Shown: positions 337 to 13,058 of the stretch, piece after piece
Layout: each line of letters begins with the position of its first letter
Numbering within the stretch: position 1 is the stretch's first letter
Source: a virus
IMG/VR virus record: IMGVR_UViG_3300031974_002305
Location: 1-20,072 of that record
DNA: 20,072 bases
Strand: one strand, 5' to 3'
Notes under the pieces: model-generated
Told to the model about the DNA's origin: nothing
The model's input: the letters and a program-made list of their open reading frames with translations, nothing else
The model's database searches: none
Position numbers and translations under genes: made by a program

Positions 337-771
337 ATGGCAACTATTAAAGGGGATGCACTTGTTTTGTATATCCATGATGGAGCTACTACCTACGAGC
401 CGGTAGTATGTTTAACAAGTAATTCATTAACGAACACGGTTAACGTGATCGAAAGTCAAACAAAATGCGACCCAGGAGAGATAAAAAGAGGGGCTGGCTC
501 AGCGTCTTATGAAATTTCTTTTGAAGGGGAGTATATCGAAAATGAAAGCGGTAAAATTACCCACGACGGGTTATTAGCTTTTATTAACACTAACAGCGGA
601 GTAGAGAAAACTTGGCGTATGGACACTGGCCAAACTGGAACGCCTTATTACTACGGTACAGCTATTCTAAGCAACTTAGAATTAACTGCGCCAGCTGGGG
701 ACGAGTACGCAACGTTTAGCGGTACTTTAACCGGGAGCGGTTTAGTATTAACTACTGATCCAATACCATAG
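337..771 (+). CDS. Major tail tube protein
   Basis: This 144-residue protein probably polymerises into the tail tube. Support comes from location (directly before two tail chaperone frames and the tape measure) and from clear paralogy with the gene at 5068-5586: both share CLT(S/T)N near residue 25, SF(E/D)G at exactly 61-64, Trp93 and Asp96, and a C-terminal DEYxxFSGxxTGxG block (about 120-135). That last block resembles the end of the TP901-1-type major tail protein/tube fold. The ATG follows an A/G-rich leader (aaaaaaaggaagc). A promoter-like TATCTTTG lies upstream. Of the two paralogues this one is the better candidate for the bulk tube subunit because of the conserved gene order. Confidence 0.85.
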   Translation: MATIKGDALVLYIHDGATTYEPVVCLTSNSLTNTVNVIESQTKCDPGEIKRGAGSASYEISFEGEYIENESGKITHDGLLAFINTNSGVEKTWRMDTGQTGTPYYYGTAILSNLELTAPAGDEYATFSGTLTGSGLVLTTDPIP

Positions 772-776
772 GAAAC

Positions 777-1163
777 ATGAAAAATTTAAAATTAACAATT
801 AATAGCCGAGAGTTAGAATTTACTTTTGGTTTAGGTTTCTTAGGAGAGGTTTTAGAGTTTTTAGATATGTCAATGTCAGAACTTGGCGAAAAGGTTACTA
901 AAAACCCTTATAAATATATTCCTATTTTGGTTTATCATTCTGCAAAGTACGCTTTAGATTTAGAAGGCAAAGAGGCCGACTTTACGCAAAAAGATGTTAT
1001 AGAGTGGATCGAAAAAGACGGCGGTATTAATTTCGGTAACAAATTTTACATGAGGTTCCAGGAGAAGTTTATAGAAAGTTTGACGAAGGACATACCAAAA
1101 AATGAAGAAGAAGAAACCGGGAACGCTGAACCCGTAGAAGCCCCGGAAAGTGAAAAAAAGTAG
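777..1163 (+). CDS. Tail assembly chaperone, short form (gpG-like)
   Basis: A 128-residue acidic protein placed between the major tail protein and the tape measure, the position of lambda G and its many analogues. These chaperones coat the tape measure during tail assembly and are absent from the virion. The N-terminal half is alpha/beta (LTINSRELEFTFGLGFLGEV), the C-terminus is a Glu/Lys-rich tail ending SEKK. The last codons contain the slippery heptamer A AAA AAG directly before the TAG stop, and the -1 frame is open through 1489, so a longer fusion form is expected. The function is inferred from order and from the frameshift architecture rather than from sequence similarity. Confidence 0.8.
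   Translation: MKNLKLTINSRELEFTFGLGFLGEVLEFLDMSMSELGEKVTKNPYKYIPILVYHSAKYALDLEGKEADFTQKDVIEWIEKDGGINFGNKFYMRFQEKFIESLTKDIPKNEEEETGNAEPVEAPESEKK
1154..1160 (+). other. Programmed -1 ribosomal frameshift site
   Basis: The heptamer A AAA AAG is in the correct phase (0-frame GAA AAA AAG TAG) one codon before the stop of the gpG-like gene. After a -1 slip, both tRNAs re-pair on AAA and translation continues GTA GAC TGG GCA into an open frame ending at 1489. The fusion would be 237 residues: 128 from the first frame plus 109. A AAA AAG is a known strong bacterial slip site (it is used in Escherichia coli dnaX), and a G/GT-type frameshift is conserved in long-tailed phages. I could not identify a convincing downstream stimulatory hairpin. 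Confidence 0.8.
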
Positions 1164-1489
1164 ACTGGGCAGCTGATGTTATAAGCGTTGCTTTAGGAGA
1201 ATTAAAATGCCCGAGTTTAGACTATGTTTATAGAATGACTTGGGCAGAATTTAAAATACGTCTTTTTGCTTATAATAGACTAGAATTGAAGGACTGGCGG
1301 AAGGTAAGAGAAATAGCCTATAATAGCTTAATAAGTTTTAACGTAGATCCTAAAAGCCTACCAAAAAGCATAAATCATTTTATGCCACTGGACAAAGTTA
1401 GCAGCACTGCCCGAGAAAAAAGAAGAGCAAGAATAGCGCAAGTCCAAAAGGAATACGCTGAAAAAATAAAACAAGCTAATGGCGGATGA
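1160..1489 (+). CDS. Tail assembly chaperone extension (T-like part of GT fusion)
   Basis: The -1 frame is open from the slippery site and carries 109 residues. The first in-frame ATG is only at 1235 (84 residues, MTWAEFKIRL), but the 25 codons before it read as ordinary protein (VDWAADVISVALGELKCP), so the natural product is the frameshift fusion with the upstream chaperone rather than a separate protein. In lambda the T part of gpGT binds tail tube subunits and brings them to the tape measure. The C-terminus is Lys/Arg/Glu-rich and probably helical. The end overlaps the tape measure start by 11 nt. Internal initiation at 1235 remains possible. Confidence 0.75.
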   Translation, partial: VDWAADVISVALGELKCPSLDYVYRMTWAEFKIRLFAYNRLELKDWRKVREIAYNSLISFNVDPKSLPKSINHFMPLDKVSSTAREKRRARIAQVQKEYAEKIKQANGG

Positions 1490-3191
1490 TTTACACGTAG
1501 GCATAGGGGCCGACACGGGCGGCCTAGAGAAAGGACTAGATAAAAGCAAAAAAAGTATTAAGGACTTTGGCGAAGCTATTAAAGACAGCGCTAAAGATAC
1601 CGATAAACTAAGCTCTAGCGCTAGGTCCGGAGTAGATGCAGCAAAACAACTCGGTAACGCCTTTAGTTCAGCCCAGGCCTCAGCTACAGATACAGCCGGC
1701 GCAATTATAGACGCTGGAGAAGCAATAGGGGCGGCTTCCAAAGAAATGAAAAATGCAAAAGGGGCTACTATGGCCCTTTCTGCTGCTACGACTACTGGGT
1801 TAATTACTGCCCTGGGAACCGTTTTAATTATCCTGGGTAAATATTCTTTTTCTTTAAGTGATGCAGCTAAGCAAGCTAAAGCGCTTAGAGACGCTACAAA
1901 AAAGGCTATAGGTAGCGCCCAGGTACAAATAACTACTTATAATCAATTATTAGGCATAGCCAGAGACGTTACAAGAAGCGACGAAGAAAGGCAAGAAGCA
2001 TTAGACCGAGTAAATAAAGCGTCCGGTAAATATGTAGGTAACTTAAAGCTCGAAGGTATAAACACCGACGACGCAATTAAGAAAACTAATAAGTACACAG
2101 CCGCATTAATTAGACAAGCTAAAATAAAAGGCTTAGAAGGACGTTTAGCCGATTTATACGCTAAGCAGTACGAAATATCTAGTAGGACTATAGAAGAGGG
2201 TACAGATTCGTACGAAAAATGGGGAGCTGCTATAATAAGCGGAACCGTTGGGGCTGGGGTTTTTAACAGTACTTTATTTACTGCTAACACAGCACTAGGC
2301 AGACAGGCTAAAGAACTTAAAAACGTCGACAGTGAAATAAAAAACTTAACTGGTTCATTATTAAAACTAAACGACTTAGAAAATAAAATAGCTTCTGGTT
2401 CTGGTGGTGGTGGTGGAGCTTCTAGCGGCAAAAGAAGCCCTTTAACAAGCGTTTTTGCATTTGATCCAGCAAAAGTTACCTCAGAAGGTTTAAAAGGCTT
2501 TAGACAGGCTGAAAAAGCGTTACGAAATAGAATAGGACCAGTACTAAACGGTTTTAATAGCCAGATAATTATAGGTCCAAATGATGAGGCACGTATAAAA
2601 TCTGCTGAGGCTTGGCAGAAACAAAATGAAGCAGACGCAGCGGCATTTAGACAGAAAGAGGCACAATTAGATCAATTTAACCAAAATATTAGTAGTATTA
2701 TAAGCCAGGGAACGGCTAGCGCCTTTGCTGGTATTGGAGAAGCTATCGGCGGGGCTATAACTTCTGGCGGGGACGTTCTAGGAGCTTTAGGGGCCTCGTT
2801 GTTAGGTTCTTTAGGTGGAATTTTAGTAGAGCTTGGAAAAATGGCAATAGCTGTAGGTGTAGGATTGCAAGCTATAAAAGCCTCATTGGAAAGTTTAAAC
2901 CCGGTAGCGGCTATAGCTGCTGGTATTGCTTTAGTGGCTTTAGGATCTATTTTTAAGTCCGGGGCAGCTTCATTATCTGAAAGGTTTGAAGGCGGCGGCG
3001 GTTCTGGTGGTGTATCTGGTAGTGGTACAAGTACAGGCGGGCCAACGACTAGAAGCGTTACAGCTACAGGCGGCGGTTTTAGTGGTGGAACTGTAGTTTT
3101 TGAAATAGCCGGTACAAAATTAGTAGGAGTATTAAATAAGACGCTCCAAAGAAACACAGCTTTAGGCGGTACTTTAACAATAGGTGGATAA
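1479..3191 (+). CDS. Tail tape measure protein
   Basis: A 570-residue protein that probably sets tail length and is ejected with DNA. The N-terminus (IGADTGGLEKGLDKSKKSIK) is typical of phage tape measure/minor tail proteins and is followed by Ala/Ser/Lys/Asp-rich helix up to about residue 95. Hydrophobic stretches lie near 97-125 and about 415-495 (Gly/Ala-rich). Glycine-rich linkers occur around 306-315 and 500-535. No lytic or peptidase domain is evident. If the usual rule of about 0.15 nm tail per residue holds, the tail would be near 85 nm; this is inference. The gene overlaps the chaperone frame upstream and abuts the next gene with no gap. Confidence 0.88.
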   Translation: MADDLHVGIGADTGGLEKGLDKSKKSIKDFGEAIKDSAKDTDKLSSSARSGVDAAKQLGNAFSSAQASATDTAGAIIDAGEAIGAASKEMKNAKGATMALSAATTTGLITALGTVLIILGKYSFSLSDAAKQAKALRDATKKAIGSAQVQITTYNQLLGIARDVTRSDEERQEALDRVNKASGKYVGNLKLEGINTDDAIKKTNKYTAALIRQAKIKGLEGRLADLYAKQYEISSRTIEEGTDSYEKWGAAIISGTVGAGVFNSTLFTANTALGRQAKELKNVDSEIKNLTGSLLKLNDLENKIASGSGGGGGASSGKRSPLTSVFAFDPAKVTSEGLKGFRQAEKALRNRIGPVLNGFNSQIIIGPNDEARIKSAEAWQKQNEADAAAFRQKEAQLDQFNQNISSIISQGTASAFAGIGEAIGGAITSGGDVLGALGASLLGSLGGILVELGKMAIAVGVGLQAIKASLESLNPVAAIAAGIALVALGSIFKSGAASLSERFEGGGGSGGVSGSGTSTGGPTTRSVTATGGGFSGGTVVFEIAGTKLVGVLNKTLQRNTALGGTLTIGG

Positions 3192-5045
3192 ATGGCAGTT
3201 AAATATTTATTAGAATATAAAGACACTGATAACGCAGCGCACAAGCTCGAAATATACGACGACAACTATACAGACGATCCAATAAACATACAAGGGGTTA
3301 TTTTCTTAGATTATGGCCAGGTAGAAAAGAGTTTAGAAGCGATCCGGGGAAATGGTTTAAGAGTAGAGCTAGAGGCTTCGCCAGACAGGAAATTTACCGA
3401 GCTTTTTACAAGTGGGGAAAGGTCCTATTCTGTAATTTACTATAGAGCTAATGTAGTTTTGTTTAGAGGCTGGGTAAATCCAGAAGGCTACTACGAGGAC
3501 TTTGTAGCCGATAAATGGATAGTTTCGTTAGACTGTATAGACGGGCTAGGCTTCTTAGAAAACCTTTCTTATGTAGATAGTAACGGGCTTATTTTCACAG
3601 GAAAACAGAACCAGTTAGAAATAATTGTAAACTGTTTAAAAAGAACAGGCATAGCAGCTAATATAAATACTAATATAGATATTTATTACGATGGGCTTTC
3701 TACTTCTGTAGACGTTTTAGCTAATGTTTACGCTAATACTGAGCGTTTTGTAAAAGATGATGGAGATACTATCATGAGCTGCGAAGAGGTTTTAAGAGAC
3801 ACTTTAGACGGTTACGCAGCCTGTATTACTATGCACTTAGGGGAGTGGTATATTTATAAGCCTAACCAGTTATTTAAAGATACTGAGGCGACTTTTTTTA
3901 GATATGACAGCGACGGCGTAGCACTAAGCCCAACAACGCAAACATTTGACACGGCCCAGGCATTAGGAAGCCAAATAGATAATTTTTACCCTCATCATGC
4001 CGGCGGGAACCAAAGTTTAAGCCTGGAAAAAGCAATAGGGGCCTACAGAATTGTTTATGAGTACGGTTTTGTTAAAGGGCTTTTAGATAATATCTATTTA
4101 CAGAATATAGCGGGCGTTATAGACGACTGGACTATAGGCGGCTCAGCGGATCTAACGTTACCGGCTTCTGGGGAATACGGGGTTTATTTGCCTTATAGGT
4201 ATGTAGATAACGATAATACATTAGTAGAAATGTACTCAGACAATATCACTGTAGGCAGCGGCGATATTATTGTAGTTAGGTTTGACGTTACACCAGATCC
4301 AGCACAGGAGTATTTAACGTTTTTTACTTACCGATTAAAAGTAGTAAACGGCGGCACGGTTTATTATTTCAATGATACTACAGGGGCCTGGCAGTTATCT
4401 ACGCCTCATCCTTGCGGTGTAGACATTGGTTTAGAGGCTGTACAATTTAGTTTAACAGCTCCAGGATCGCCCCAGGCTGGAAATTTAGTAGTAGAAGTTA
4501 TAAAGCCTGTAGCGTCTAATAGTTTACAGACAGCAACCGATAGAAGTTTATTTTTAACTAAAGTAGCTGTAGAACCTAACACTGATGAAAATGTACAAGG
4601 GGAAACACATACTTTTCAAAGGACCGATGATCCAAGCTCAAAAATAGAAGATAACAAAGAAGTTTACACAGGAGATAACCCGACTGAAATTTACGTAGGG
4701 GCTTTATTTGAAAACGACGAGACTACGCCTACAGAAAACTGGACCAGGAAAGGAGAAGGAGAAAGCAAAGGTATTATTCAAATCATGGGCGAAGAAACTA
4801 TGAGAATGAACGGGGATAACATGACGTTGTTTACTGGAGATATTTACGGCTATTTGCCTTATTTGGGAGTTTATACGATCAATAATGTACCAGGTTTATT
4901 TATGTTTATTAAATACTCCTATAATACAGCGACAAACACTATACAGGCTGAGTTTAGGCAAATATTAGGCGACGAGCTAACCGATATAGATTATAGAAAG
5001 ACTTTAAATTACGGTAATGTAGTCGAGCCTACGATTAAAAGTTAA
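3192..5045 (+). CDS. Putative tail tip / baseplate hub protein
   Basis: A 617-residue protein beginning at the ATG that immediately follows the tape measure stop (TAA ATG). I do not recognise a named family. The first 150 residues are beta-rich with many aromatic residues (GWVNPEGYYEDFVADKW), compatible with a Dit/hub-like fold; the middle holds beta-sandwich-like segments rich in Tyr, Val and Asp; the C-terminus contains a compact YLPYLGVYTINNVPGLFMF block. There is no signal peptide or membrane segment. Position after the tape measure and before fibres is where siphophages place the distal tail and hub proteins, so a structural tip role is likely; it may combine the roles usually divided between Dit and Tal. 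Confidence 0.7.
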   Translation: MAVKYLLEYKDTDNAAHKLEIYDDNYTDDPINIQGVIFLDYGQVEKSLEAIRGNGLRVELEASPDRKFTELFTSGERSYSVIYYRANVVLFRGWVNPEGYYEDFVADKWIVSLDCIDGLGFLENLSYVDSNGLIFTGKQNQLEIIVNCLKRTGIAANINTNIDIYYDGLSTSVDVLANVYANTERFVKDDGDTIMSCEEVLRDTLDGYAACITMHLGEWYIYKPNQLFKDTEATFFRYDSDGVALSPTTQTFDTAQALGSQIDNFYPHHAGGNQSLSLEKAIGAYRIVYEYGFVKGLLDNIYLQNIAGVIDDWTIGGSADLTLPASGEYGVYLPYRYVDNDNTLVEMYSDNITVGSGDIIVVRFDVTPDPAQEYLTFFTYRLKVVNGGTVYYFNDTTGAWQLSTPHPCGVDIGLEAVQFSLTAPGSPQAGNLVVEVIKPVASNSLQTATDRSLFLTKVAVEPNTDENVQGETHTFQRTDDPSSKIEDNKEVYTGDNPTEIYVGALFENDETTPTENWTRKGEGESKGIIQIMGEETMRMNGDNMTLFTGDIYGYLPYLGVYTINNVPGLFMFIKYSYNTATNTIQAEFRQILGDELTDIDYRKTLNYGNVVEPTIKS

Positions 5046-5067
5046 AAATTAATAGTAATTTTATGCT

Positions 5068-5586
5068 ATGGCATTTATTAACGGAAAAGACAAGATACTA
5101 TATTTAGACACTGGAAGGGGTTTTTTCCCTATTGGTTGTTTAACTACTAACGGCATGGACGAGAGCGTAGAAATGCTAGATACAACAACGAGAGATAATA
5201 CTAACGGCTGGTCAACTGGTAGACCTACAAGGCAAAATTATAATGTTTCTTTTGATGGTTTAATAACCCAGGAAGTAAGCTCTACTACTTTGGTAACTTA
5301 TGTAGAACTAAGGCAAGCTAAAAGAGACAGGCAATTAATAAGCTGGAAGATAGACGACGGAGCCGGCCAAGTAGACCAGGGACAGGGTTACATAGTTAAT
5401 TTAAGTGATAGCGCCGCTATAGATGAGTACGTTAGTTTTTCTGGCTCTATTACTGGTTACGGCAAGCCTACAGACACAATAAGCACCATTTACGACGACT
5501 ATGAGACGAGATCAATTTTAGGCGGTGGTTTAATGACTTCTGAGAGCTGCCAAAAAACATTTATTTTAAACATTACAGCGGAATGA
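5068..5586 (+). CDS. Second tail tube-like protein (paralogue of major tail protein)
   Basis: This 172-residue protein is a diverged copy of the tube protein at 337-771. Anchors fall at nearly the same residue numbers: CLTTN 24-28, SFDG 61-64, WKID 93-96 and DEYVSFSGSITGYG 119-132. It adds about 40 residues at the C-terminus (from about 133) that the major tail protein lacks. Its early TTTRDNTNGW segment is also like TP901-1-type major tail proteins. It lies after the tail tip gene and its stop overlaps the first fibre gene (ATGA at 5583), which suggests co-translation with fibres. A terminal tube ring or fibre-bearing collar is a reasonable guess. An alternative start at 5063 is out of frame. 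Confidence 0.75.
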   Translation: MAFINGKDKILYLDTGRGFFPIGCLTTNGMDESVEMLDTTTRDNTNGWSTGRPTRQNYNVSFDGLITQEVSSTTLVTYVELRQAKRDRQLISWKIDDGAGQVDQGQGYIVNLSDSAAIDEYVSFSGSITGYGKPTDTISTIYDDYETRSILGGGLMTSESCQKTFILNITAE

Positions 5587-7187
5587 GTTTATACGATAAA
5601 ATGATTATTGGTTTTGGTCCTGGTTTTTCAGCTGGGAAAGGGAAACTATTTTGTTTAAAGCCTACAGACGGGACCGGAGATATTGACGTAACAAGAGCTG
5701 GGGACGATGCTACAGAATTGGTTTCTAATGGGGATTTTGCCTCAGATACTATTTGGTCAAAAGGGGACGGCTGGTCTATTGGTTCTGGAGTTGCAACAAC
5801 TACCGGGGCCGCTGGTGCAATTACTCAAACGCTTTCAATTACAGAAAATGAAGAGTACTACATAGAAGTAACTACTTCTGGCGCTTATAACTATGGCGGC
5901 TTAAAAGTTCGCTTGGGAAGCTCAGAAGATGTAGCAACTATAACAGCCGATGGAACGTATTTATTTAGAGTTACAGCCGGGGCGTTAACTACTTTTGGTT
6001 TTTATGTAGAAGCTAACAGCGCTTTTATAGGAACGATTGACGATGTAAGCGTTAAAAGTGTATCTTTTAAATATAACGCTACTAGAATAAATGCTGATGG
6101 TTTTATAGAAGGTGTACCGCCTAATATGCCTAGATCAAGTTATCCTATAGGTGGCTCAGCTAACGGCTGCCCTTCTTTATTAATTGAAGATAGCGAAGTA
6201 AACTTAATAACTTATTCAGAAGAATTTGAAGATGCAAGCTGGGCAAAAACAGACAGCACAATAACAGCAAACGATATTATTTCGCCAGATGGGACCAAAA
6301 ACGCTGATAGATTAACAGGAAACACTACAAACACTACAGATAGAGTTAGCCGGGCTTATACTTATGCGACTTCTAAAAATTATATTATAAGTTGTTTCGC
6401 AAAGAAAGGAACTACAGATAAATTTAGAATACAAGCCTATGACAATATAGGATTTAACCAGGCTAGCGTATCTTTTGATTTAACCGATGGATCGTCTGTT
6501 ATTTCTACTGGTATTTCGGCCACTGCTACAGATTATGGTAACGGCTGGTGGCGATGTTCTGTAAAGTTTCAAACTACGCCAGTTTTAGGGACAGGGAGTT
6601 ATTCTTTTTATAATGAAAGCACCACAATAGGCGAATATTTGTATTTATGGGGAGCTTCTTTAGAGTTGGCAGACGAAATTACTAGCTATATTCCTACGGG
6701 ATCGACTACAGAAACCAGAAACGTAGCTACAGTTTTTGAAGGCGGAACGAGTGATTTAATAAACACTAAAGAAGGTGTTATTTTTTACGAGTTGAGTTTA
6801 TTACATGAGCCTACTACTAATATGCACCTGGAGATAAACGACGGAACTACGAGTAATAGAATTTATATTTATTTTGGTTCTGGATCTAGTATAAGGGCTG
6901 CCGGTTTTGATGGTGGAGTATTGCAGTTTAATTTTACCGGGACCACGTACACCGATCCGACGACTAAAAAGAAAATAGCGGTACGTTATAAAGCTAACGA
7001 TTTTAGTTTATGGGTTGACGGCGTAGAAGTAGACACCGATGTAAGCGGCACTTTACCAGCTGCAGGAACTTTTGATAATATAGAAATAGTAAAACCGGCT
7101 AATGAATTTGTAGGGAATATTTATAGCATGATGTATTTTGCAGAATATTTAAGCGACGAAGAATTAACGACATTAACTACATTATGA
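5583..7187 (+). CDS. Tail fibre/adhesin, copy 1
   Basis: A 534-residue probable receptor-binding protein. Visible parts: N-terminal attachment segment (1-45, IGFGPGFSAGKGK); a first beta-sandwich resembling carbohydrate-binding modules (about 46-158, opening ELVSNGDFASD and closing IDDVSVKS); a linker ATRINADGFIEG...YPIGGSANGCP (about 165-200); a second beta-sandwich like the head-spike-fibre domain of other phages (NLITYSEEFEDASW onward, about 206-380); and a C-terminal LamG/concanavalin-like domain (about 390-534, with VRYKANDFSLWVDGVEVDTD). It ends YLSDEELTTLTTL. No chaperone or enzyme motif is seen. It overlaps the genes on both sides by 4 nt (ATGA). Confidence 0.82.
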   Translation: MSLYDKMIIGFGPGFSAGKGKLFCLKPTDGTGDIDVTRAGDDATELVSNGDFASDTIWSKGDGWSIGSGVATTTGAAGAITQTLSITENEEYYIEVTTSGAYNYGGLKVRLGSSEDVATITADGTYLFRVTAGALTTFGFYVEANSAFIGTIDDVSVKSVSFKYNATRINADGFIEGVPPNMPRSSYPIGGSANGCPSLLIEDSEVNLITYSEEFEDASWAKTDSTITANDIISPDGTKNADRLTGNTTNTTDRVSRAYTYATSKNYIISCFAKKGTTDKFRIQAYDNIGFNQASVSFDLTDGSSVISTGISATATDYGNGWWRCSVKFQTTPVLGTGSYSFYNESTTIGEYLYLWGASLELADEITSYIPTGSTTETRNVATVFEGGTSDLINTKEGVIFYELSLLHEPTTNMHLEINDGTTSNRIYIYFGSGSSIRAAGFDGGVLQFNFTGTTYTDPTTKKKIAVRYKANDFSLWVDGVEVDTDVSGTLPAAGTFDNIEIVKPANEFVGNIYSMMYFAEYLSDEELTTLTTL

Positions 7188-8806
7188 GTTTATACAGTAA
7201 AGTAAGTATAGGTTTTGGCCCTGGTTTTGGAGTAGGGGAAGATGTTTTATTTAACGATAAACCTAATACTAGTGCGGGAGATTTTAAAGTAATTAGAAGC
7301 GACACTACTACAGCTCCAGAACTTGTTACAAATGGAAGTTTTGCAACCGATAGCGACTGGGTTAAAGACGCTTGCTGGTCAATAGCTGGCGGCGTGGCCG
7401 TTAGTGATGGCACAGGCGGAGATATAAGCCAAGCGCTGAGCCTTACAGAAGGCTACGACTATTTTGTTAAGGTAACTACTTCTGGCGGTTTTTACGCTAA
7501 TAACGGGCTTCAAATACAATTAGGGAATAATACATACCAGGCTAAGATAACAGCCGATGGATCATACATTTTTAGGCTAACTGCTGGGGCTTCGTCTAAC
7601 TTGGTATTTCATGCTGAAACCTCAGCATTCATAGGAAACATTGACAATGTAAGCGTTAAGAGCGCCGATTTTAATTACTCAGCTACACGTATAGACGCTA
7701 ACGGATTTATAAAAGGAGAAAGGCCAAACGTACCTAGGGCTACTTATCCAATAGGCGGGAGCGATAACGGCTGCCCTTATTTGATTTTAGAGCCAGCGGT
7801 AAGAAATATAGCTTTACAAAGCGAGGCTTTAAATACAAGCCCATGGAGCCAAAGAAGTTTAACCGTAACAGAAAATTACGACTATGCGCCCAGCGGGTTA
7901 TTAACTGCTAGTTTGTTGGTTCCTACGGGTTCTGGTATTCATAACATAAACCAGGGTTATAGCGGAGCCGCTTCTAACTGGATTTATAGTTTTTTTGCTA
8001 AGATACCTACAGGAAGCACAATAAAATATGTAACTGTTTATCCTGGGGCCGCAGATGCGGACGCTAATTTTGACATAGAAACAGGAGCTATTACCACTGA
8101 TACAAATGTAGTAAGCGCCTGGACCGAAGATTACAGCGGCGGATGGCTACGATGTTTTGTTAAATATGATAATGCTATAACTACCGATAGAATGAGGCTT
8201 TACGCAAGTAGCGGCCCTTTAGGAGCTAGTATCACTACAGAAACAAGCGGCGACGGTATATTAATTTGGGGTTGTAGTGTAGTAGAAAGCACCTCAGAAG
8301 GTTTTTACGTCCCTACAATGGCTGGGCTTCAACAAAAAGAAGTTGATTTAGTAAACAATGCTGGAGAAGCTGCCGACTTTAATACTACAGAAGGCGTTTT
8401 ATACGCTAATATTGCAGCGTTACAAAATGATTTAACTACCAGGGCTATAAGTGTTTCTAGCGGGGCGTCTACCGATGCAATAACAATAAAATATAACACG
8501 GTTTCTAACCAGATCCAGGCTGAGGTATTTTCTAGCCTTTCTTTACAAGCTCAGTTAACCTATGATGCTACAGATATTAAAGATTTTCACAAAGTAGCTA
8601 TAAGATACAAAGCAAACGCCTTTAGTTTGTGGGTTAATGGCGTAGAGGTTGCAACCGATACCAGCGGCAATACACCCGCTTCATTAATAGAAATGAGTTT
8701 TGATAGTGGCGGCGGATCCGATGTTTTTATAGGAAAATGTAAAGAACTTTTATATTTTAGTGAATACCTAAGCGACGTAGAATTAACAACATTAACAACG
8801 TTATAA
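7184..8806 (+). CDS. Tail fibre/adhesin, copy 2
   Basis: A 540-residue paralogue of the preceding gene, starting at the ATGA overlap. The two proteins have the same domain order and the same ends: MSLY.K..IGFGPGF at the N-terminus and EYLSD.ELTTLTTL at the C-terminus. The first beta-sandwich, the ATRI(N/D)..GFI...PN.PR..YPIGGS linker and the LamG core (VAIRYKANAFSLWVNGVEVATD) are well conserved, whereas the second beta-sandwich (about 205-390) has diverged strongly, as expected if it contacts the receptor. Two copies may give the virion two specificities or form a hetero-oligomeric fibre; this is inference. Confidence 0.82.
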   Translation: MSLYSKVSIGFGPGFGVGEDVLFNDKPNTSAGDFKVIRSDTTTAPELVTNGSFATDSDWVKDACWSIAGGVAVSDGTGGDISQALSLTEGYDYFVKVTTSGGFYANNGLQIQLGNNTYQAKITADGSYIFRLTAGASSNLVFHAETSAFIGNIDNVSVKSADFNYSATRIDANGFIKGERPNVPRATYPIGGSDNGCPYLILEPAVRNIALQSEALNTSPWSQRSLTVTENYDYAPSGLLTASLLVPTGSGIHNINQGYSGAASNWIYSFFAKIPTGSTIKYVTVYPGAADADANFDIETGAITTDTNVVSAWTEDYSGGWLRCFVKYDNAITTDRMRLYASSGPLGASITTETSGDGILIWGCSVVESTSEGFYVPTMAGLQQKEVDLVNNAGEAADFNTTEGVLYANIAALQNDLTTRAISVSSGASTDAITIKYNTVSNQIQAEVFSSLSLQAQLTYDATDIKDFHKVAIRYKANAFSLWVNGVEVATDTSGNTPASLIEMSFDSGGGSDVFIGKCKELLYFSEYLSDVELTTLTTL

Positions 8807-11339: not shown

Positions 11340-11352
11340 AAACAAATACATT
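11340..11352 (+). promoter_or_regulatory. A-rich translation leader box
   Basis: AAACAAATACATT stands directly before the ATG at 11353 and occurs identically before the ATG at 14327 (14314-14326). Close variants precede the starts at 12045, 13258, 17006 and 19054. There is no Shine-Dalgarno sequence at these genes. In Bacteroidota, A-rich leaders take that role, so this is probably the ribosome-binding region of this phage's early genes. Confidence 0.5.
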
Positions 11353-11550
11353 ATGAAAACAGTAAGTTTACCTATCGAAAACATAAAGGCTTTTAAAAAA
11401 TCTTGCGAGGCATTAGAAGGCCTTAACTTTATTAGTTATGATGAAAATTCTAAAATGGCTGAAATTAGCTACATGAAGGGTTTTAACCTATTCTTTTTAG
11501 GCGTTCATTATAACTGCCAGGATCAATTAATGAAAATAAAAACTAAATAA
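11353..11550 (+). CDS. Hypothetical small early protein
   Basis: A 65-residue protein and the first gene after the early promoter, with a strong A-rich leader. I do not recognise it. It has a mixed alpha/beta look (KTVSLPIENIKAFKKSCEAL, then beta-prone ISYMKGFNLFFLGVHY) and no membrane span or zinc motif. As the first early gene it may act on host functions, but that is only positional inference. Confidence 0.65.
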   Translation: MKTVSLPIENIKAFKKSCEALEGLNFISYDENSKMAEISYMKGFNLFFLGVHYNCQDQLMKIKTK

Positions 11551-11552
11551 CA

Positions 11553-11786
11553 ATGGCAAAAAAAGTTACAATTAACATCGACAGAGCAATTAAGTATCAT
11601 AACGAAAATAACGAGCTTCGTTTAACCCGTGAGGGCTTATTTAAAATGATACGTAGACCGATGAATAAACAGCGTTTAAGCCACTGGAAACAGGGTATAG
11701 TTCCAGACGCTTTTAGAGTGGTTTACGAAGTAGCCGAAATTACAGGCCTGGACGTTAACGAAATAATTACCGTTACCGATGAATAA
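11553..11786 (+). CDS. HTH (XRE-like) DNA-binding protein
   Basis: A 77-residue protein whose central part reads like a Cro/C1-type helix-turn-helix: LTREGLFKMIRRPMNKQRLS followed by a helix ending AEITGLDVNEII, the usual final helix of this fold. The short length is typical of Cro-like or early phage regulators. It is the second gene of the early operon, two bases after the first, and overlaps the third. It may control the nearby promoter at 11298-11329. No divergent repressor gene is present. Confidence 0.65.
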   Translation: MAKKVTINIDRAIKYHNENNELRLTREGLFKMIRRPMNKQRLSHWKQGIVPDAFRVVYEVAEITGLDVNEIITVTDE

Positions 11787-11994
11787 GTTATCTAATTATA
11801 TCTGGGTAAAAAAAGTTATTGAGAGCTGTACAACTTTAGATCATGTTAGAACTACCAGGCGTTTGATTTGGATTTTTGACAGGATGCACCACGATATTTT
11901 ATTGCTAGAAAATTTATTATTAACCCTACGACTTAAAATCTACAAAATTGAAAACAACAACCTACGAACAAAAACAGATCCAGCGGCTAGTTAA
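11779..11994 (+). CDS. Hypothetical helical protein
   Basis: A 71-residue protein that overlaps the HTH gene by 8 nt (the ATG lies within GATGAATAA). It looks largely helical, with a Leu-rich stretch (DILLLENLLLTLRLKIYKIE) that could be a coiled coil. The family is unknown. The C-terminal 16 codons overlap another possible small frame (11948-12076). Confidence 0.6.
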   Translation: MNKLSNYIWVKKVIESCTTLDHVRTTRRLIWIFDRMHHDILLLENLLLTLRLKIYKIENNNLRTKTDPAAS

Positions 11995-12076
11995 TGAGCT
12001 TCTGGTAAAAGACAAATGGAGTTTAACATTTAAAACAAATAACAATGAACAGGGAAAAACTGGCAGATTTTTATAA
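11948..12076 (+). CDS. Possible short overlapping ORF with TTG start
   Basis: From the TTG at 11948 a 42-codon frame reads LKTTTYEQKQIQRLVNELLV and onward to the TAA at 12074-12076. Its composition looks protein-like, and it fills the 50-nt gap between the neighbouring genes, overlapping both. It may be a real small gene, a decayed fragment of a longer one, or chance. There is no ATG in frame. Confidence 0.3.
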   Translation: MKTTTYEQKQIQRLVNELLVKDKWSLTFKTNNNEQGKTGRFL

Positions 12077-12458
12077 AATCTACGAATTAGACAAAGACGA
12101 CTTTTACACTAAAACAAGTAAGAAGGATGGCAAAAAACAGTACACTATTATAACTAGGTCCGGTATAGAAAAAATCCAGGCTATCGAAGATATACAAGTT
12201 TCTTTCGAGGTTATAGAATGTACACCAAATTTTGCAGCCGTTAAAGCTACTCATAGCAAAGGCGAAAAAAAGATAGAAACTTACGGGAGCGCATTTAAAG
12301 GGGCTACTTGGAAGGACGGAAATACAGAAAGCTGGTACGTGCTGGAGCTGGCCGAAAAAAGAGCTTTAGCTAGAGTTATTTTAAAAGCGGTAGATTTATA
12401 CAAACATGGATTTTTTGCAGAAGATGAAAGCGAAGAGTTTAAAAAGAAAGACGCATAA
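12045..12458 (+). CDS. Conserved phage protein, possible ssDNA annealing/recombination factor
   Basis: A 137-residue protein starting after an AAAACAAATAACA leader. It has an ITRSGIEKIQAIEDIQVSFE block (about 36-55) and a SWYVLELAEKRALARVILKA block (about 101-120), then DLYKHGFFAEDESEEF. Proteins combining a beta core with an AEKRA...R..LK helix occur in early regions of Bacteroidota phages beside replication genes, and the pattern recalls Erf/Rad52-like annealing proteins, which are organised similarly. I am not certain of the family. It overlaps the next gene by 53 nt in the +1 frame, unusually long for this genome. Confidence 0.6.
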   Translation: MNREKLADFYKIYELDKDDFYTKTSKKDGKKQYTIITRSGIEKIQAIEDIQVSFEVIECTPNFAAVKATHSKGEKKIETYGSAFKGATWKDGNTESWYVLELAEKRALARVILKAVDLYKHGFFAEDESEEFKKKDA

Positions 12459-12720
12459 AAAGCGGGGCGTTACAGATAAGGACCCGATAATAGTAGAAGC
12501 GTCTTTATCGCAACTAACTTTTATTGGGACCTTATTAGATAGCTCTATACTTTCAGTTGAAAAGACTAAAGAAATAGAGGACCTACTAGACACGAAATTA
12601 AGCGAAGGCCAGGCCACTGAATTAATAGAGTTTCTAAACGAAAACCAAAGAGACAATATTAACGGCGGCTGGAACTACACACAAGGGGATATACAAAGAA
12701 AATTAAGCGAATTAAAATGA
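12406..12720 (+). CDS. Hypothetical protein partnered with the recombination-like gene
   Basis: A 104-residue protein with a basic start (KAKSLKRKTHKKRG) and then a helical domain: EASLSQLTFIGTLLDSSILS, EATELIEFLNENQ-like turn, and GGWNYTQGDIQRKL. This QLxFIxxLL...LIxxLxxNQ...DIxxKL layout is one I associate with small proteins downstream of phage annealing genes; its activity is unknown. The ATG is inside the preceding gene, 53 nt before its end, so the true start or a frameshift link is uncertain. It ends in an ATGA overlap. Confidence 0.6.
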   Translation: MDFLQKMKAKSLKRKTHKKRGVTDKDPIIVEASLSQLTFIGTLLDSSILSVEKTKEIEDLLDTKLSEGQATELIEFLNENQRDNINGGWNYTQGDIQRKLSELK

Positions 12721-13058
12721 ATGATCTTTTAAAACAAATTACCGATACTATTACGACTTACCGCTCCTTACATGAGGCCGTAGATTTTAACGCTGGGTTA
12801 ACCCTTAACGACTTAATGAGGGAGTTAAGTTCTGATCTTTTTTTCCTGGCTAAATACCAGGACCAAGAGCGGGTTAATTACTACGCTACAATTTACCGAT
12901 TAATGCACGGCGAAGAGCAACTTTCTGCAACCAAGGCCGAAAAGATAGCTAAGCATTTACACCCTCAGAAAAGACAGCTAGACAATTTTATAGCTTATGG
13001 TTATCGAGTTTTAGACGCTATGAGATCAAATCAAAGTTACCTAAAACAAGAAAAATAA
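12717..13058 (+). CDS. Hypothetical protein
   Basis: A 113-residue, probably all-helical protein joined by ATGA to the gene before and by TAATG to the gene after. Sequence such as YYATIYRLMHGEEQLSATKAEKIA and HPQKRQLDNFIAYGYRVLDA has alternating charge typical of helical bundles. No known motif is seen. The strict coupling on both sides places it in the early DNA-metabolism operon. Confidence 0.7.
   Translation: MNDLLKQITDTITTYRSLHEAVDFNAGLTLNDLMRELSSDLFFLAKYQDQERVNYYATIYRLMHGEEQLSATKAEKIAKHLHPQKRQLDNFIAYGYRVLDAMRSNQSYLKQEK

Follow-up and report, generated by a model that had tools for sequence, protein, structure and literature searches.

The window analysed here, a stretch of DNA that is a 20,072-base IMG/VR virus record, raises the question of why a phage tail module encodes two tail tube proteins, one on either side of the tape measure, and what place in the tail the second one takes. 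The gene order runs from the end of an upstream tail gene through the first tube gene (TTP1), a probable chaperone, an 84-aa gene, the tape measure, a hub gene (HUB), the second tube gene (TTP2) and two adhesins to further genes; because of the length of the record, the head genes lie outside it. The features discussed below are the following.

1-286: end of an upstream tail gene, perhaps for tail completion, judged by position alone
337..771, plus strand: TTP1, major tail tube protein, 144 aa; PF06199 and phrog_1407, at the usual position ahead of chaperone and tape measure, within the TTP1 group of the tree
777..1163, plus strand: probable tail assembly chaperone (TAC), 128 aa; position, a weak sub-threshold match to PF12363 Phage_TAC_12 (E 0.13), syntenic in relatives
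1235..1489, plus strand: small conserved tail gene (S84), 84 aa, overlapping the tape measure start; phrog_16333 (E 1.7e-4), syntenic in relatives
1479..3191, plus strand: tape measure protein (TMP), 570 aa; phrog_25337 tail length tape measure protein (E 6.3e-14)
3192..5045, plus strand: HUB, gp27/gp44/Tal-like baseplate hub by AlphaFold2 model, 617 aa, interrupted at about residues 294-463 by a CBM4-like domain
5068..5586, plus strand: TTP2, second tail-tube paralogue with C-terminal extension, 172 aa; PF06199, model, tree and synteny
5482..5583, plus strand: variable C-terminal tail of TTP2, about residues 139-172, the putative adhesin-docking part; its similarity tracks the family of the next gene
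5583..7187, plus strand: fibre/adhesin 1, 534 aa; phrog_5939 tail protein (E 3.3e-50), weak LamG_3 match (E 0.0017), ATGA overlap with TTP2
7184..8806, plus strand: fibre/adhesin 2, 540 aa; full-length paralogue of adhesin 1 by alignment, phrog_34853 (E 1.4e-17)

Both tube genes are real open reading frames, and their products are true paralogues of the PF06199/phrog_1407 tail-tube family: pairwise comparison, profiles and tree all agree with the sequence-only reading, which had proposed the pair. BLASTP of the two proteins gave E = 2e-11 with 26% identity over 140 columns, which rules out a chance likeness. Each independently scores above the curated cut-off of the Pfam family PF06199 'Phage tail tube protein' (23.8 bits; TTP1 36.6 bits, E 5.5e-9; TTP2 37.6 bits, E 2.8e-9) and matches phrog_1407 'major tail protein' in PHROGs (E 1.5e-27 and E 2.6e-24, respectively), so that their similarity reflects family membership. 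The anchors S61-F62-x-G64, W93 and D96 carry identical residue numbers in the two proteins, as had been noticed; the DEYxxFSGxxTGxG block, listed with them, is present in both but with a three-residue offset (122-135 in TTP1, 119-132 in TTP2). In a tube-protein tree of 100 rows, 41 of them TTP1 and 56 TTP2, a supported branch sets each copy apart from the rest (96/86 for TTP1, 98/85 for TTP2). Because each copy forms its own supported group, the tree points to a single old duplication that was retained, and one such event before the radiation of the group would explain it. A recent tandem duplication private to the window phage is ruled out by the same tree.

The double arrangement, which the sequence-only reading had suggested looking for in related phages, was found in dozens of IMG/VR contigs and in two cultured phages, Flavobacterium phage 11b and Cellulophaga phage phi10:1. 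Scanning IMG/VR with a TTP2 alignment recovered 48 loci carrying TTP2 (a single TTP2 sequence as query gave no matches there), and a scan with HUB alone recovered 24 loci chosen regardless of their tube proteins. Among the HUB-selected loci with room, TTP2 begins no more than 600 nt after HUB in 22/22 and TTP1 lies upstream in 18/18. Across relatives the order TTP1-TAC-S84-TMP-HUB-TTP2 is constant, and adhesins follow. The cultured phages have the same tube pair (gp36/gp44 in 11b, gp84/gp89 in phi10:1) in the same order, with the hub between tape measure and TTP2, and differ from the window in the TTP2 tail and in the adhesin genes. Their records name the products 'major tail protein', 'phage tail protein' or 'hypothetical' and do not note the pair. 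The tube pair has been conserved throughout this group of flavobacterial phages, whose cultured members are annotated piecemeal. The literature searched contained no text on the pair; we claim no priority, since the primary papers on 11b (2007) and on the Cellulophaga phages (2013) lie outside that search.

Scans of bacterial genomes gave a sole match, an 11 kb contig of a Lacinutrix metagenome-assembled genome that carries TTP1, HUB and TTP2 (L082) and is probably a phage contig binned with it; beyond that genome, 395 sampled genomes from the phylum yielded no match. Cellulophaga phi12:1 and Bacteroides Bacuni_F1, more distant relatives whose hub is related, each have a single annotated tube protein and none annotated after the hub, and a profile search detected no second tube gene in the phi12:1 locus. 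Given these two phages, a tail tip built without TTP2 is possible.

The tube genes do flank the tape measure, on the evidence of sequence, profiles, tree and gene order, but they do not flank it alone: HUB separates the tape measure from TTP2. This gene went unmentioned in the sequence-only reading and is decisive for interpretation. The AlphaFold2 model of HUB (pLDDT 82.8, pTM 0.79) has Mu gp44 as its best Foldseek match (1wru, E 9.8e-8). VIA-align scores it at Z 15-19 against Milano, Mu, T4 gp27, VgrG and contractile-injection-system hubs, and at Z 12-14 against the siphophage 80alpha and monocin hubs; the gp27-like domain set is thus recognised at Z 12-19, mostly over about 250-330 residues. 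By its modelled fold, HUB is a trimer hub of the gp27/gp44/Tal type. Its homologue gp088 in phi10:1 is recorded as detected in virions by MS/MS. Residues 294-463 of HUB form a separate CBM4/CBM16-like jelly roll (Z 12-13), apparently inserted in the gp27-like hub, and this modelled domain may be a second carbohydrate-binding site at the tail tip. The hub open reading frame of 11b and loci like it (L003, L009-L013 and others) has about 120 more residues at its N-terminus (about 740 aa, compared with 617 in the window and 636 in phi10:1), which is either a real extension or a wrong start.

Structure prediction had been suggested as a check on both tube proteins, and for TTP2 it returned a tail-tube fold. 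The model (pLDDT 77.6) is closest to tail-tube proteins, first monocin MttP (8qhs, E 6.7e-9), then the GTA tube (6toa) and lambda V; VIA Z against the monocin, GTA and lambda tubes is 12.7-14.5 over 128-137 residues, all within residues 1-142. Its BFVD matches are 'TP901-1 major tail proteins', the phi12:1 protein among them. The tail-tube beta-sandwich is thus seen in the TTP2 model and, for TTP1, by profile only. A tube-like ring domain of the kind found in Dit proteins is present in TTP2, but it is common to tube proteins and so not specific. No known Dit family was matched by TTP2 in the Pfam and PHROGs scans, which returned only tube families and a sub-cut-off DUF5424.

The rings of tube, Dit and tube initiator share fold and ancestry, a kinship usually visible in structures only; in contractile tails the tube initiators include T4 gp48/gp54 and Afp5. 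In siphophages a Dit hexamer separates the last tube ring from the Tal trimer and bears the receptor-binding proteins, and the usual gene order is tmp-dit-tal (PMC7291167). The distal protein of T1 folds like a TTP and rests its hairpins on the threefold hub (PMC11945409), that of JBD30 helps to form the fibre attachment site (PMC11445458), and in contractile systems a second tube-fold ring links the tube to a gp27-like hub (PMC8894135, PMC11915804).

Against this background, we propose that TTP2 is an old tube duplicate turned distal ring, which joins the tube to HUB and holds the fibres by its C-terminal tail, a reading to which we assign a probability of roughly 0.6. Between tape measure and adhesins the window encodes HUB and TTP2 alone. 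No separate Dit candidate is available because no other gene lies in that interval, and the role of distal ring and fibre holder is proposed for TTP2 because it is the sole tube-fold protein found for that place in the group. Hexamer, virion position, copy number, tube initiation and adhesin contact would be as follows. Six TTP2 copies would stack on a HUB trimer, which would convert threefold into sixfold symmetry through the two tube-like domains of each subunit, and the resulting ring would start or cap the TTP1 tube, taking the Dit place of other siphophages or the tube-initiator place of contractile tails. Projecting from this ring, the C-terminal tail would dock the adhesins encoded directly downstream at their N-terminal module. 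The terminal ring or fibre-bearing collar that the sequence-only reading had offered as a guess thereby gains three indirect supports, namely a modelled hub encoded before TTP2, the lack of any other gene between tape measure and fibres that could provide such a ring, and a tail that is swapped together with the adhesin family. The order tape measure - HUB - TTP2 speaks against a distal ring, as Dit normally precedes Tal.

TTP2 resembles the Dit proteins (SPP1 gp19.1, 80alpha, p2, T5 pb9, lambda gpM, T1 gp37) in its tube-like fold, its expected place between tube and hub and its putative carrying of adhesins (PMC7291167, PMC11945409). Unlike them, it matches the tube family PF06199 and no Dit family in sequence, it is encoded after the hub in the window and in all relatives rather than between tape measure and Tal, and it has a short tail where Dit has a galectin or OB domain. 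We do not class TTP2 as a Dit, since it lacks a Dit-family match and its gene follows the hub. The second tube-fold hexamers that connect the tube to a trimeric gp27-like hub in contractile tails, such as Alg5/Alg7 of AlgoCIS and Mu gp43 (PMC8894135, PMC11915804), are a further likeness, here at the level of fold only: the modelled folds of TTP2 and HUB fit the comparison, and assembly of a hexamer is a prediction. Unlike in contractile tails, no sheath gene was recognised in the window, and the tube paralogy is visible in sequence.

TTP2 could instead be a minor subunit along the tube. SPP1 has two tube subunits, gp17.1 and gp17.1*, that are a C-terminal extension apart and come from one gene by a frameshift; TTP1 and TTP2 also differ by a C-terminal extension, with two genes here. 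A TTP2 of this kind would decorate the shaft and perhaps bear adhesins there, and the ordinary tail-tube fold that it retains, closest to tube proteins, would suit it. However, no other segment is as strongly conserved among TTP2 proteins, or as unlike TTP1, as the inter-ring hairpin 39-50 (helix 78-86 comes next), and the TTP2 gene sits in the hub-adhesin block of every relative, not beside TTP1. A shaft subunit is therefore improbable. For the distal ring, the hairpin corresponds to those of the T1 distal protein that contact the hub, and its divergence, expected if TTP2 faces a different partner than TTP1 does, is weak evidence for such a partner. In the phi10:1 records, neither tube protein is marked as detected by MS/MS. 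As even the undoubted tube subunit escaped detection, this absence carries no information; suitable tryptic peptides number only 2 in gp84 (TTP1-type) and only 3 in gp89.

The place of TTP2 immediately upstream of the fibre genes is confirmed by the sequence, in which an ATGA overlap at 5583-5586 joins its end to the start of the first fibre gene; translational coupling of the two is plausible from this overlap. Adhesins 1 and 2 are tandem paralogues with a common N-terminal module, diverged middle regions and weak LamG-like matches. Adhesin-like genes stand downstream of TTP2 in several loci: phrog_5939 tail proteins follow TTP2 in the window and in L056, and a tail fibre of GDSL-esterase type follows it in L059, while in other loci the next gene has no named family. 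The L059 adhesin (11341-12918) carries a C-terminal GDSL-esterase-like domain that falls just below the curated cut-off of PF13472 (E 1.3e-7).

The last 34 or so residues of TTP2 occur in unrelated versions among the phages, and these versions track the adhesins. When the first 50 residues encoded by the next gene were used to label the phages, which gave six families, TTP2 tails from pairs with 40-60% core identity scored 58-65 within a family and 21-23 between families, against a shuffled mean of 20.1. For core identities of 50-60% the 99 same-family pairs scored 64.6 and the 196 pairs from different families 22.9, a value near the shuffled mean. These pairs are not independent, as each adhesin family corresponds to about one TTP2 clade, and the result rests on about five switches. 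The same comparison showed no effect for the C-termini of TTP1 (core identity 50-60%, 89.2 within and 90.3 between families) or of HUB (core identity 40-50%, 92.8 and 97.5). L057 is an exception, with a window-like TTP2 tail and a different next gene.

The tail may be a docking peptide for adhesins or a passenger at a recombination border. Block recombination with its left border in the TTP2 C-terminus would give an equal pattern with no physical contact and no docking role, and it draws strength from the near-identity of each family with one clade and from the few independent switches. The tail is, however, conserved within a type across cores of only 50-60% identity (65 compared with 20 when shuffled), which argues that it is under constraint rather than junction junk. 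Within-family conservation favours docking, and we regard the recombination account as unlikely, though to be taken seriously; it concerns the tail only and is compatible with a distal ring. Docking also has against it that the C-terminal 30 or so residues of TTP2 were modelled at low confidence (pLDDT 50-63). A pattern search for docking motifs of the TTP2 tails found no recurrence in other proteins of the loci.

A tail that tracks the adhesin family, together with the ATGA overlap and a TAnnTTTG box just before TTP2 in some relatives, would also suit a protein belonging to the adhesin module, a fibre adaptor with its tube fold outside the DNA channel that forms a collar around the hub or the last tube ring. 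The TTP2 core, however, shows the conservation of a tube ring, and with TTP2 outside the channel the hub would have to meet TTP1 directly, so that we consider such an adaptor quite unlikely. In one relative (L063, 3822-5080) two tandem TTP2 genes with long branches in the tree follow the hub, preceded by a short open reading frame that resembles one FN3-type domain; immediately 3' of the two copies, no adhesin gene was recognised. This duplication fits a distal ring and a fibre adaptor alike.

If the distal-ring reading holds, this lineage preserves in sequence a step otherwise read from structures, with a tube gene and its duplicate on either side of tape measure and hub. More broadly, the distal ring of these flavobacterial siphophages might be a sequence-recognisable tube duplicate that serves as a universal adapter, whose C-terminal peptide is exchanged with the host-binding module so that various adhesin sets fit one tail, a generalisation that we offer tentatively and hold at somewhat less than even odds. 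An exchangeable tail that is a docking site would explain how adhesins change without the tail being rebuilt, and would name a short peptide and a short fibre N-terminus as a directly testable binding pair.

The TAnnTTTG box, which we take to be the flavobacterial -7 promoter element, occurs upstream of TTP1 in 15/43 cases (2.7 expected) and upstream of TTP2 in 27/55 (5.2 expected). Being above expectation before both genes, the boxes do not tell which subunit is major and which is minor. In related loci (e.g. L017, L024, L012 and L056) the box stands 12-13 nt before the TTP2 start, so near the ATG that a transcript from it would be nearly leaderless. In the window, TATCTTTG is found at position 295, 42 nt before TTP1.
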